Positions 1-3,479 of a DNA stretch of 43,177 bases are shown here, piece by piece. The first letter of the stretch is position 1. Each line of letters starts with the position of its first letter. The position numbers were made by a program, and so were the translations under genes. The stretch lies in the IMG/VR virus record IMGVR_UViG_3300043425_000490, positions 1 through 43,177 of that record, one strand, 5' to 3'. The notes under the pieces were generated by a model. It made no database searches. It was not told the origin of the DNA and saw nothing but the letters and a program-made list of their open reading frames with translations. Origin of the DNA: a virus.

Positions 1-16
1 ACCCCGAAGGCATAGA

Positions 17-39
17 TGTCAGTTTTTAAAGAACTGACA
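17..39 (-). other. small stem-loop near the window edge
   Basis: An 8-bp perfect inverted repeat (tgtcagtt and aactgaca) with a 7-nt loop lies just downstream of the 37-aa gene on the minus strand. No clear U-run follows it on either strand, so a terminator role is only possible. A second C/G-rich motif with a UUCG-like loop begins at the window edge (positions 2-10) but is cut off. Confidence 0.3.
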
Positions 40-43
40 AACT

Positions 44-51
44 TATTTATA
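44..51 (-). promoter_or_regulatory. candidate T4-type late promoter box
   Basis: The minus strand reads TATAAATA, the T4 late-promoter consensus, just after the stop codon of the 37-aa gene and pointing out of the window. The hairpin at 17-39 would lie directly at the transcript start. In such A+T-rich DNA an 8-base match can occur by chance, so support is moderate. Confidence 0.35.
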
Positions 52-53
52 AT

Positions 54-167
54 CTATTTACCAAAAAGTCCTAAAACTTTTGCTTTCAATGCTTTTGCCC
101 ATGCTGGTTGCTCAACGTGCCAACCAATAAACGCACCAACTAGTACCCAAAATAAAGTTTCTAACAT
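54..167 (-). CDS. small membrane protein, 37 aa
   Basis: A short open frame starts at ATG 165-167 with a good ribosome-binding site (AGGAG about 7 bases upstream) and ends in TAG. The product has an N-terminal hydrophobic segment (residues about 4-15, LFWVLVGAFIG), then a short stretch with Trp and Pro, then a Lys-rich end. This suggests a single-pass membrane miniprotein. Small proteins of this look (LFWVxVGA start, basic tail) are, to my recollection, common in marine T4-like phages, but no function is known to me. It is the first gene downstream of the tmRNA terminator, so it either has its own promoter or depends on readthrough. Confidence 0.7.
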   Translation of the reverse strand: MLETLFWVLVGAFIGWHVEQPAWAKALKAKVLGLFGK

Positions 168-183
168 ATATTACTCCTTTATT

Positions 184-220
184 AAAAAGCTGGTTTATTC
201 TGTTTCCAAGTCAAACCAGC
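184..220 (-). terminator. intrinsic terminator of the tmRNA coding piece
   Basis: On the minus strand an 8-bp stem (GCTGGTTT paired with AAACCAGC, 16-nt loop) is followed directly by TTTTT. It lies 17 bases past the tmRNA tag stop codon, so it probably ends the tmRNA precursor and may form the 3' hairpin of the mature coding piece. Confidence 0.75.
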
Positions 221-236
221 AAAACTCAGTAGTGGA

Positions 237-269
237 CTAAGCCGCTACAGCGTATAACTCATCGTTTGC
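237..269 (-). other. tmRNA proteolysis-tag reading frame (ANDELYAVAA)
   Basis: Codons from GCA at 269-267 read A-N-D-E-L-Y-A-V-A-A followed by TAG (239-237). With the alanine carried on the tRNA domain the added tag would be AANDELYAVAA. The start (AND) and end (AVAA) match the usual tmRNA tag pattern recognised by ClpXP-type proteases. Confidence 0.9.
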
Positions 270-430
270 AGTTATATTTGATTAACTTTAACGTGTTATT
301 TCCACGAACGCTCTTATCCTATCTCACGCTGTCGAAACCTGGTCAGGCCCATCAGAAGCATATTAGGTTAGTTTTCGGATACTCTAGGCTATCTAACCAC
401 GTCCTAATCTAGAGTTCTTAAATATGCTTT

Positions 431-490
431 TGGTGGACCTGGGCGGAATCGAACCGCCGTCCAACATGCCTTACTTTAGAGTTTACGTCG
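431..490 (-). ncRNA. ssrA: tmRNA acceptor piece (3' half, encoded CCA)
   Basis: This part holds the P2 3' strand (468-462), T arm, acceptor 3' strand (441-435), discriminator A (434) and encoded CCA (433-431). Its upstream end is not defined by sequence. A further possible P2 pairing (GACG at 489-486 with CGTT at 310-307) puts it near 490, which overlaps the last codons of the preceding 73-aa frame. Confidence 0.85.
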
Positions 491-697
491 TTTTACTTTA
501 CCAGTATAGAAAATTGGAATATACCACCAAGGATGTTTCTTTGGTTTGTTTAAAGTATATTCCCATTCTACACCAGCAATATCTATCCAAGTAGTGTGAA
601 AACCAAACCACGTTCTACTCTTACTCCATTTAATTCTACCGCCTTGTGTAAGTCTCATTATTATAACATAAATGAGACAGTTACCATAACGCTTCAT
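476..697 (-). CDS. conserved-looking hypothetical protein, 73 aa, overlapping the tmRNA
   Basis: The frame starts ATG directly after the RegA stop (TAAATG), so coupling to regA is likely. A second ATG 13 codons in (MRLTQGG) is the other possible start. Neither has a strong ribosome-binding site. The product is basic and Trp/Tyr-rich (SRTWFGFHTTW, KKHPWWYIPIFYTGKVKRRKL) with no motif I can name. The last codons (about 476-490) coincide with the 5' part of the tmRNA acceptor piece, so the same bases may be read as both protein and RNA. The aromatic, patterned C-terminus looks like real protein rather than chance translation. Confidence 0.65.
   Translation of the reverse strand: MKRYGNCLIYVIIMRLTQGGRIKWSKSRTWFGFHTTWIDIAGVEWEYTLNKPKKHPWWYIPIFYTGKVKRRKL
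660..668 (-). promoter_or_regulatory. candidate extended -10 promoter for the tmRNA
   Basis: The minus strand reads TGTTATAAT, a perfect TATAAT with the TGn extension, inside the start of the 73-aa frame. No good -35 is visible 17 bases upstream. A start near position 653 would make a transcript covering the permuted tmRNA down to its terminator. Confidence 0.35.
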
Positions 698-1102
698 TTA
701 ATAATCAGTCTTTTTCTTACCGATATTATATTTACTTACAAGTTCCCACTCATTACGTTCTTTGTGTGAAATAACTTTAATTTGATGTAATGGACCAATT
801 TTGTCCGTCATAATTTCAGGATTAGCAATAATCACTAAACCCCAATCAGATAACAACTTAGCAATCGCATTACGTCTCAGTATGTCGTTTTCATCTAAAC
901 TTGATGGTCTATCATCAAGCGCAAACAACTCTTTAAAATGTGTGATGTAATATTTACCTTGTTTATGTAATATATGACAAGATTGATACAACACTTTATC
1001 TGTTCTTGAAGCTACTCCTATACGTGATAATGTTTCTCGCACTTTTAAAAAGTCATCTGGTTCTTTGAGTTTTACCTCAACAAAACTAGAAATGTCAATC
1101 AT
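698..1102 (-). CDS. regA: RegA translational repressor
   Basis: RegA binds near the start codons of many early phage mRNAs and blocks their translation. The 134-aa product aligns by eye with T4 RegA (about 122 aa) along its length: an EVKLKEPDDFLKVRETLSRIG start, VLYQSCHILHKQGKYYITHFKEL in the middle, and a C-terminal region RNAIAKLLSDWGLVII followed by WELVSKYNIG. It follows gp62 by one base, the same 44-62-regA order as T4, so it belongs to the replication operon. The family normally regulates itself and its neighbours. Confidence 0.96.
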   Translation of the reverse strand: MIDISSFVEVKLKEPDDFLKVRETLSRIGVASRTDKVLYQSCHILHKQGKYYITHFKELFALDDRPSSLDENDILRRNAIAKLLSDWGLVIIANPEIMTDKIGPLHQIKVISHKERNEWELVSKYNIGKKKTDY

Positions 1103-1103
1103 T

Positions 1104-1490
1104 TTATTTCCTTAATCCACCAATATCGGTTTCTTCTTTTAGTTTTTGGATTTGATTCTCATCAAGAATTTCATATGCTTGTCTAGCTTTGATATCAGAA
1201 TAACCATAATATTTTTTGATACATTCTAAATCTTCTAGCTTTTCAACTTTTTCGCTTTTGATGAACGGCCTCTTTTTAGACCTTACGGTATTTATAAAAT
1301 ATAAAAACTGTAACCTATTGTCTAGATGAGGTCTTTCATTCATCATACTAGCAAATCCTATACAATCTAAATGATTGGAAAGTGCTCTATTGGTTAGATA
1401 AGGAACATACTTTTTTTCATCTTGCTCGGTTTCCATTATATCATTCTTGTTGCCAAGAATTTCTTTAACAAAGTCAAATACTTCTGCCAT
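1104..1490 (-). CDS. 62: clamp loader small subunit gp62
   Basis: gp62 works with the gp44 ATPase to load the gp45 sliding clamp onto primer-template DNA. The 128-aa product has the features of the shorter gp62 of marine T4-like phages: FDFVKEI near the N-terminus, YVPYLTNRALSNH at residues about 28-40, then a MNERPHLDNRLQFLYFINTVRSKKRPF block. Its position directly before regA supports this. Unlike T4, it is not next to gene 44; two other genes come between. It is shorter than T4 gp62 (187 aa). Confidence 0.9.
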   Translation of the reverse strand: MAEVFDFVKEILGNKNDIMETEQDEKKYVPYLTNRALSNHLDCIGFASMMNERPHLDNRLQFLYFINTVRSKKRPFIKSEKVEKLEDLECIKKYYGYSDIKARQAYEILDENQIQKLKEETDIGGLRK

Positions 1491-1505
1491 AATATATCCA
1501 ATTTT

Positions 1506-2063
1506 TTACGATTTAGCTTTTAGAAGATACTCAATTTCTTGCTGAGTCAAGTCTTTCACCTTAGTGACTGCTTCTTGATGTATGCCGATTCCTATCATAT
1601 ATCTAACACCACCAAATTTATCTTGTTTTTTATAAGGTCTGCCACGGAATTTCTCAGGGTCGACTTTATATATACATCCAGCTAAATCTGATTTCCATTT
1701 AGGGTCGGGCACAGCCACAAAATATAACTCATCAACCATGCGACACTTATCGAGTTGACTTTTTCTAATTGTCAATTCAGATGTAGTAAAATATGGAGTT
1801 TGTGTTTTAACTTCAACTGTTTTTTCATTTACGATAATGGTAATAGATTCACCATCATCTATAAAGTCATCAACACTTTTAATCAATTGTATCTTTTGGT
1901 ATACTGTCATGTCTTTTTTACTATCATATGAATCTACTGATAGTTCAACTCTGGTGTTTTCCATAGACGCAAAATAATTAGCAATAATACTTTCACCTGC
2001 TTTACCAAGATTCATAATCTTAGTTGCATGTTTTAGTTTATCCAATTCTTGTGTGGAATCCAT
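1506..2063 (-). CDS. putative PD-(D/E)XK-fold protein
   Basis: I do not recognise a named family. The 185-aa sequence has a pattern seen in PD-(D/E)XK nucleases and related proteins: an N-terminal helix with GKAGE (residues about 20-24), acidic residues at D47 and D51, then a strand with E-V-K (residues about 84-86, in VEVKTQTPYF). The lysine-rich C-terminal half (FRGRPYKKQDKFGGVRYMIGIG) could bind nucleic acid. It overlaps the preceding gene by 26 bases and sits between clamp-loader genes 44 and 62. A DNA-repair or DNA-cleaving role is inference. Confidence 0.6.
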   Translation of the reverse strand: MDSTQELDKLKHATKIMNLGKAGESIIANYFASMENTRVELSVDSYDSKKDMTVYQKIQLIKSVDDFIDDGESITIIVNEKTVEVKTQTPYFTTSELTIRKSQLDKCRMVDELYFVAVPDPKWKSDLAGCIYKVDPEKFRGRPYKKQDKFGGVRYMIGIGIHQEAVTKVKDLTQQEIEYLLKAKS

Positions 2064-2538
2064 GATTTATATCCTTATGTTTATTTTCTTTGTTTAGCAC
2101 AGTATTCATTTTTTTAGATACTTGTGATGATATTTTCTTCATCGATGCAGTGATATCTTGACCAGCATAGAATTCAAAATATCTAACACTGGTGTCATTA
2201 AACATATCATTACGGTCACTAAAGAATCTAGTAAACTCTTGAGCACCGCTATGGTCTTCATCATGTCTATTGGTACCTAAAGCTGTTTTGACGAATCTAT
2301 GAATTCTATTTCTCACATATCCGCTAGAATAGCCAACAAACAAAGGAATACCGTTCTTGTAAATACAATAAAAGCCATGTCTGTTTAAATTAACATTAGG
2401 CACTAAAACCAAATTACTGCCTTCAGAATCATCAGGATAGAAAGCAATATCTTGAGCATTAGATAGTTTTTCAACTATTTCCTCTGCATAATCATCTTCA
2501 TCTTTAACATATCCACCAAATAGACTAGGTGTACTCAT
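2038..2538 (-). CDS. putative GIY-YIG-like domain protein
   Basis: The 166-aa product has GFYCIYKNGIPLFVGYSS at residues about 55-72. This matches the GIY-YIG signature as GFY plus FVG at the expected spacing, followed by an Arg-rich helix (VRNRIHRF). The catalytic Glu/Asn part of the domain is not obvious downstream, so activity is uncertain. It could be an endonuclease, a homing-type invader now fixed in the operon, or a non-catalytic relative. It overlaps the stop of gene 44 by four bases, and the next gene overlaps it by 26, so all three are probably translated as a coupled set. Confidence 0.6.
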   Translation of the reverse strand: MSTPSLFGGYVKDEDDYAEEIVEKLSNAQDIAFYPDDSEGSNLVLVPNVNLNRHGFYCIYKNGIPLFVGYSSGYVRNRIHRFVKTALGTNRHDEDHSGAQEFTRFFSDRNDMFNDTSVRYFEFYAGQDITASMKKISSQVSKKMNTVLNKENKHKDINHGFHTRIG

Positions 2539-3479
2539 TTGAACTCAGCCTCCATCATAATCATTGTTAACATAGCCAAATCGTTTAATTGAGAATCCGA
2601 AACGAAGGCTCTCTTATATTGATAATCTGCTAATGTGACAACTAAAGATGGAATATATCTCGATTCTACTCGAGTATACAACTCATCAAACAGTTTTCTA
2701 TAAAAAGAAGTTGAATCATAATCGTTATTAGATAACCACTTTTTAACTCCAGCAAAGTCTTTATCTTTGATATAATTGATAATATCAATAACAGATTCAT
2801 CACCTAGTCTAGATAAAAAACCTACATCAATTTTACCAAACTTAGAATATCTTTGTAATTCATTTAAAGTACGTCTAAAGTCAGGAAAGAATTTATTAAC
2901 TACTTCAGCAACAACCTTTTCGTTATATTCAATATTCTCTTTTTTTAATATCTCAATCACTCGTTTAAAGAATTGAGATGCCATCTTAGCTTTTTCATCT
3001 TTAGTTAATCTGAAATCAATAACAGCACATCTAGAATGAATAGGTTCAATAATCTTTTCTTTAAAGTTACAAGTAAAAATAAAAGAACAGTTTCTAGCAA
3101 ACTCTTCAATCAAATTTCTGAAACCAGCTTGAGCGGCTGAAGACATACCATCAGCCTCGTCAATGATAACTACTTTGCGACCACCTTTTAATGATACAGC
3201 GGCCGCATAATCAGTGACTAAATTATGTACTACATCAATACCAAATTTAGATGAGCCATTTAAAACGATATAGTCACAACCAACTTCTTCACATAAAGCT
3301 TTGGCTACAGTTGTTTTACCAACACCTGCACTACCAGTGAGCATCATGGTTGGAATATCTTTAGTTCTTACGTATTCTTTAAAGGGAATTTTTAAACGTT
3401 CAGGAAGAACGCATTCGTCAATAGTCTTAGGGCGATAAGCTTCAACCCATAGAAATTGTTTTACATCTTTTTCAATCAT
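2535..3479 (-). CDS. 44: clamp loader ATPase gp44
   Basis: gp44 is the AAA+ motor that opens the gp45 clamp. Counting from ATG 3479, Walker A GSAGVGKTT is at residues about 49-57, Walker B IIDEAD at about 105-110, and the SRC arginine finger (sensor region) at about 149-151. The 314-aa length matches the family (T4: 319). I chose ATG 3479 because it has a ribosome-binding site (GGAG, about 6 bases upstream). The longer frame from GTG 3503 begins inside a transcription terminator hairpin. Distal to 45 in the operon, as in T4, but followed by two inserted genes before 62. Confidence 0.97.
   Translation of the reverse strand: MIEKDVKQFLWVEAYRPKTIDECVLPERLKIPFKEYVRTKDIPTMMLTGSAGVGKTTVAKALCEEVGCDYIVLNGSSKFGIDVVHNLVTDYAAAVSLKGGRKVVIIDEADGMSSAAQAGFRNLIEEFARNCSFIFTCNFKEKIIEPIHSRCAVIDFRLTKDEKAKMASQFFKRVIEILKKENIEYNEKVVAEVVNKFFPDFRRTLNELQRYSKFGKIDVGFLSRLGDESVIDIINYIKDKDFAGVKKWLSNNDYDSTSFYRKLFDELYTRVESRYIPSLVVTLADYQYKRAFVSDSQLNDLAMLTMIMMEAEFK

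Follow-up and report, generated by a model that had tools for sequence, protein, structure and literature searches.

Phage-encoded two-piece tmRNAs have been published already. Among 133 unique phage tmRNA structures, 53 were predicted to be of the two-piece type, mostly from marine or aquatic sources, and the two-piece ssrA gene of phage Melnitz was described in the same work (Buchholz et al. 2022, PMC9004378); the gene analysed here is therefore not the first. The 2025 tmRNA database contains 79 phage sequences and mentions, among the intervening sequences of permuted tmRNAs, one with tRNA-Ala and one with a repetitive element (PMC11915505). No mention of protein genes in a tmRNA spacer was found in the open-access literature searched, and an exchange of the spacer, with small protein genes or folded RNAs inside it, seems not to have been described before.

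The tmRNA gene of the window

The DNA analysed (the window) is the whole 43,177-nt stretch of a 43-kb virus fragment (IMG/VR record IMGVR_UViG_3300043425_000490). The fragment comes from a T4-like phage, and its minus strand carries, at about 492-184, an ssrA gene that is circularly permuted and complete. ARAGORN reported a permuted tmRNA at c[146,523] with the tag ANDELYAVAA*, and two Rfam models matched with scores far above chance: beta_tmRNA RF01850 (171-544, minus strand, 108.2 bits, gathering threshold 84, E 3.9e-32) and tmRNA_permuted RF04321 (237-492, minus strand, 107.4 bits, gathering threshold 47, E 3.9e-20). RF01850 was the top-scoring permuted subtype model in a comparison from which clan members with lower scores were omitted. 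A previous sequence-only reading had proposed a phage-borne two-piece tmRNA and named a covariance-model search as its check; this search, with both models above gathering, and ARAGORN confirmed the proposal.

The 3' piece, or acceptor half, is transcribed first (431..492, minus strand, as are all features of the gene) and comprises a P2 strand, the T arm (458-442), the acceptor 3' strand CAGGTCC (441-435), a discriminator A and an encoded CCA (433-431). It is followed by the spacer (351..430) and the 5' piece (184..350), which contains the acceptor 5' strand GGGCCTG (350-344), the D-like loop GGTTTCGAC, the P2 strand AGAGCGTT, the mRNA-like region and a 3' hairpin. Pairing of the two acceptor strands (350-344 with 441-435) creates the G3-U70 wobble of alanine identity. 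For P2, the window offers AACG/CGUU and CUCU/AGAG as possible pairs, in a region that the Rfam model accommodates, but this helix aligned poorly across distant genes. The tag frame assigned by ARAGORN (ANDELYAVAA-stop, 237..269) includes a resume codon, and its hydrophobic AA tail is followed by the stop. The gene ends in a terminator-like hairpin, GCTGGTTT...AAACCAGC followed by TTTTT (184..220, -13.0 kcal/mol, z -3.12). The earlier reading was borne out on the acceptor half coming first (about 492-431) with its encoded CCA, on a spacer of exactly 80 nt (430-351), and on the G3-U70 acceptor, the T arm and the tag (269-237). It had placed the gene at 184-490 and left the strand unstated: the end at 184 held, since the T run of the hairpin (220-184) lies there and the mRNA-like piece finishes with it on its 3' side, whereas the start had to be moved to about 492, and the strand is minus.

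Judged by its predicted proteins, the phage is T4-like and distantly cyanophage-like, at some distance from any isolate. T4-like proteins of the window include RegA, gp62, gp44, the sliding clamp, dNMP kinase, a gp46-like nuclease subunit and a helicase, and, among virion proteins, the major capsid protein, portal and tail sheath. The best matches of the capsid protein and gp44 were to marine T4-like phages (66% and about 52% identity, respectively), with the capsid protein being 66% identical to that of S-H38 and 63% to that of Melnitz. When the window locus was compared with GenBank phages at the nucleotide level, only short partial matches were obtained. The order on the minus strand is regA, a 73-aa ORF, the tmRNA, the terminator-like hairpin and a 37-aa ORF. 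The regA gene (translation repressor; 698..1102, minus strand; phrog_242, E 6.6e-59) is the upstream neighbour. The 73-aa ORF (476..697, minus strand), whose last codons and stop overlap the tmRNA P2 strand, had no match in a Pfam search; it is missing from the close relative L212, and a copy with 55% identity adjoins the tmRNA of contig L096. The 37-aa ORF (MLETLFWVLVGAFIGWHVEQPAWAKALKAKVLGLFGK; 54..167, minus strand) is a conserved neighbour directly 3' of the tmRNA. Immediately past it, a late-promoter-like box of T4 type, TATAAATA, was seen at 44-51 (minus strand). No SmpB gene was found on the 43-kb fragment, so that the tmRNA must depend on host SmpB or on a phage gene elsewhere.

Spacers of phage tmRNA genes

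The 80-nt spacer of the window contains no ORF and is expected to be removed at maturation. A predicted closing stem, AAGCATATT (429-421) with AATATGCTT (364-356), encloses a putative H-type pseudoknot made of a 7-bp stem S1 (ACTCTAG, 415-409, with CTAGAGT, 387-381) and a 6-bp stem S2 (GGTTAG, 398-393, with CTAACC, 371-366; all minus strand). Its p value against dinucleotide shuffles was about 0.003, a single-spacer value uncorrected for the number of spacers tested. A single pseudoknot shape common to all spacers was considered and rejected, as a significant pseudoknot was present in only some of them (window, L066, L062/L220 and L024).

Comparison of related contigs shows a spacer that appears to be exchanged between phages like a cassette. 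In L212, whose RegA is 98% identical, mature tmRNA halves almost identical to those of the window flank a different spacer, and the inner acceptor pairs differ as well. As parsed by ARAGORN, the spacers of 83 distinct permuted genes on viral contigs had a median length of 87 nt (range 24-210; at least 110 nt in 27/83), in a set that may include prophages or host DNA and in which contigs of one habitat may share recent ancestry. Bacterial spacers had a median of 30.5 nt (n=26, the one long case being a doubtful parse); this control set is mostly alphaproteobacterial because few betaproteobacterial genes were sampled, the family search yielding 5 permuted genes from that group and a pattern search of 398 genomes none.

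In about 15 viral spacers, an ATG frame beginning 10-23 nt past the CCA covers 79-93% of the spacer; most of these frames have a Shine-Dalgarno site (e.g. AAAGGA), and most reach a shuffle p <= 0.016. They are found in L120 (5607-5756), L211, L212, L210, L016/L265, L045/L267, L269, L042, L054, L116, L222, L044, L094, L096 and L201 (Melnitz, 54-aa frame). Homologous sets are formed by L004/L219 with L211, L212 with L210, L042 with L054, and L016 with L045. Differences by codon position were 10/13/32 for L016/L045 (dN 0.22, dS 1.75), where protein-level constraint is clear, 15/11/21 for L004/L211 (dN 0.32, dS 1.04) and, as a weaker signal, 7/6/7 for L212/L210 (dN 0.12, dS 0.30); the L042/L054 ORFs are too alike for an estimate of constraint. 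The L016 family recurs in the tmRNA spacers of L265, L267 and L269 and is free-standing in L270-L274, where no tmRNA was called nearby; it is thus a genuine protein family that has made its way into spacers. A frame of 124 aa (L093, 2791-3165, plus strand) lies inside a tmRNA spacer of about 400 nt, and comparison with Pfam, PHROG and PDB gave nothing convincing for it; the spacer ORFs as a whole had no convincing Pfam or PHROG identity.

In other spacers, structured elements that do not code for protein recur. A 63-nt element was found in 11 contigs, always directly after the CCA and beside quite different tags, and a 119-nt element in many genes with differing tags. An element of roughly 100 nt has an invariant core (TGCCACTTAATCAATATATGCGGAG...CCTTCCGCGGGTTAC) and a covarying closing/outer stem, with 9 predicted pairs of the outer stem changed on both sides. 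It occurs in L121 (1484-1582), L120 (5980-6080), L057 (~2650), L207 (~12690), L011, L037 and L263, the contexts being tmRNA spacers, positions downstream of a tmRNA (L120, L057) and the interval between tRNA-Glu and tRNA-His (L207). No Rfam family was found for it; for the loci scanned against Rfam, the families listed were tmRNA and tRNA, with the glutamine riboswitch of Melnitz as the only other one, and a search of GenBank phages with the recurrent elements gave no match.

Further irregular arrangements were observed. The spacer of L263 (5310-5100, minus strand) consists of two tandem cassettes with an acceptor-like minihelix ending in ACCA between them, and that of L223 likewise has tandem cassettes with a minihelix imitating the acceptor stem and a CCA-like end. 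T-arm-like hairpins (GGTTCGAATCC and similar), perhaps tRNA remnants, lie within the spacers of L005, L030, L103 and L223. L261, L262, L264 and L209 carry tmRNA-like acceptor halves with odd T loops (e.g. GCCTGCGACAAGC) and the 63-nt spacer element described above.

It might be argued that the tmRNA is real and its spacer inert filler, and that chance or drift accounts for the ORFs and repeats of related spacers. The window spacer itself is compatible with this idea, as no exact copy was found elsewhere and its nested minimum-energy fold is unremarkable (z -0.76). We nevertheless regard it as unlikely, given the long ATG frames of 14-15 spacers with their ribosome-binding sites and shuffle values, the third-position bias and low dN relative to dS in L016/L045, the free-standing homologues of the L016-family protein, and the placement of the same 63-nt element directly after the CCA in 11/11 contigs.

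Conservation and probable function of the RNA

Contigs with RegA proteins 86-98% identical to that of the window (L212, L120/L004, L121 and L219) have a permuted tmRNA downstream of regA, as do the more distant contigs L223 and L210. The tmRNA directly follows regA in L212, L219 and L121, with intervening genes or a gap in L120 and L223, and the 37-aa ORF is also present 3' of the tmRNA in L212, L219, L121, L216 and L223. This shared position marks the tmRNA as an established gene of this phage lineage. Relative to the window, the acceptor stem of L212 shows two fully compensatory replacements, with G4-C69 instead of C4-G69 and A5-U68 instead of C5-G68. Across 59 phage genes, 97% of cells were paired both in the acceptor and in the stem below the D loop, compared with 89% and 81%, respectively, after shuffling, although these figures are biased upward because the gene calls lean on ARAGORN, which demands pairing. 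Double-change cells numbered 20 in the acceptor and 76 in the stem below the D loop, and G3-U70 was present in 58/59 genes. Together, compensatory changes and retained pairing argue for a working RNA.

In L121 (1424-2508; similarly in L203, L204 and L205), a GIY-YIG homing endonuclease gene (1651-2274) breaks up a first permuted tmRNA copy after the D-like arm. This copy is followed by a second, diverged one with the tag ANDELFALAA and ACTA replacing ACCA.

Phages frequently integrate at ssrA, a point also cited in PMC9004378. The gene could on these grounds be a relic or passive passenger, derived from a host (for instance through such integration) and no longer working, a reading to which the broken, endonuclease-bearing copies of L121 and its kin lend some weight. 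It is improbable for the window, where all elements are intact, the acceptor stem is kept by compensatory changes, the position in a T4-like genome is conserved and no integrase was found among the proteins searched. A decoy function, in which the tRNA-like domain would titrate SmpB and thereby inhibit host tmRNA, has a reported precedent in the tag-less sequence of mycobacteriophage DS6A (PMC4131195, PMC11915505) but is highly improbable here, as the window gene has a full resume codon, tag and stop, which sets it apart from that inhibitor class without a tag frame, and the tag-less copies in L121-type contigs are followed by a diverged complete copy.

The proposal that the gene was captured from a host bearing such a tmRNA of two pieces found no support here: no clear source emerged among host ssrA genes, and the gene is established in the phage lineage. 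A search for host ssrA genes with a similar tag gave one hit, an identical tag, ANDELYAVAA, in the gammaproteobacterial MAG 39-13, yet the gene there is of the standard one-piece form (L200:7451-7809, minus strand) and gives no evidence of origin, so that this candidate source was rejected.

By analogy with established two-piece tmRNA biology, the working RNA would arise from a single minus-strand precursor composed of acceptor half, spacer and 5' half. As for the two-piece tmRNAs of bacteria, RNase P would cut before GGGCCTG and 3' processing would expose the CCA. This would set the spacer free to be discarded, leaving two pieces held together by the acceptor stem and P2. Alanine would be attached by virtue of G3-U70; during infection the tmRNA, helped by host SmpB, would then release ribosomes that have stalled on broken messages and append the tag ANDELYAVAA, presumably to the benefit of the phage. 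As a whole, we regard this explanation of the gene as very probable. We infer, in agreement with the sequence-only reading, that the phage thereby may control ribosome rescue during infection.

Within this phage group, the spacer forms an exchangeable compartment, occupied by a pseudoknotted 80-nt element in the window and, in relatives, by small protein genes or different structured RNAs. In L212, L016, L045, L116, L042, L054 and Melnitz, the stop of the spacer ORF lies past the expected RNase P site. Where the stop falls within the 5' half, the RNase P cut would separate it from the message and so create a non-stop mRNA, the substrate of the tmRNA itself; such feedback via the spacer ORF is put forward purely as a hypothesis. 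Taken as a whole, we give an even chance to the proposal that phage two-piece tmRNA genes are cargo vehicles whose spacer cassettes are set free as separate molecules at maturation, with ArfA-like non-stop feedback and a pseudoknotted RNA as the cassette of the window. If this reading of the spacer is true, a stable-RNA gene is used to deliver small genes, whose expression would be coupled to tmRNA maturation, and the use of the intervening sequence of a permuted tmRNA becomes directly testable.

Comparison with known systems

With the window gene, the known phage two-piece tmRNAs gain a regA-linked member of the beta type, and the view that T4-like phages carry ribosome rescue along with them is supported. 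For the specialist, the surprise is the exchangeable, sometimes protein-coding spacer, which the window joins through its swapped 80-nt cassette.

The Melnitz ssrA gene (MZ577097; PMC9004378) is likewise a permuted tmRNA gene of a T4-like (Kyanoviridae) phage. Its spacer is 142 nt long and has an ORF with a GGAG site, whereas that of the window is 80 nt and lacks an ORF. The Melnitz tmRNA is of the alpha type (RF01849, 106.7 bits) with the tag ANDNYVPVDYALAA, that of the window of the beta type with ANDELYAVAA. Melnitz ssrA is located near the late-transcription coactivator gene and precedes a glutamine riboswitch; the window gene lies beside regA, and no such riboswitch (RF01739) was found in window positions 1-3000 at E <= 1, with the one in Melnitz detected as a positive control. 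Betaproteobacterial two-piece tmRNA (RF01850) resembles the window gene in being its best subtype model and in its ANDE...AA tag, although the window scores 108 bits compared with 138-152 for the viral relatives L026 and L096, and differs from it in its T4-like phage context and exchangeable spacer.

In the permuted tmRNAs with tRNA-Ala or a repetitive element (PMC11915505), the spacer also carries extra sequence, but these are single cases, one of them nominally archaeal, and nothing is said there about spacers with protein genes. The tmRNA with a group I intron and homing endonuclease genes (PMC11915505) is similar in that a tmRNA gene houses another gene. There, however, the host element is a self-splicing intron in the T loop, for which the loci scanned gave no Rfam group I intron match, whereas the phage spacer is bounded by tRNA-processing sites.
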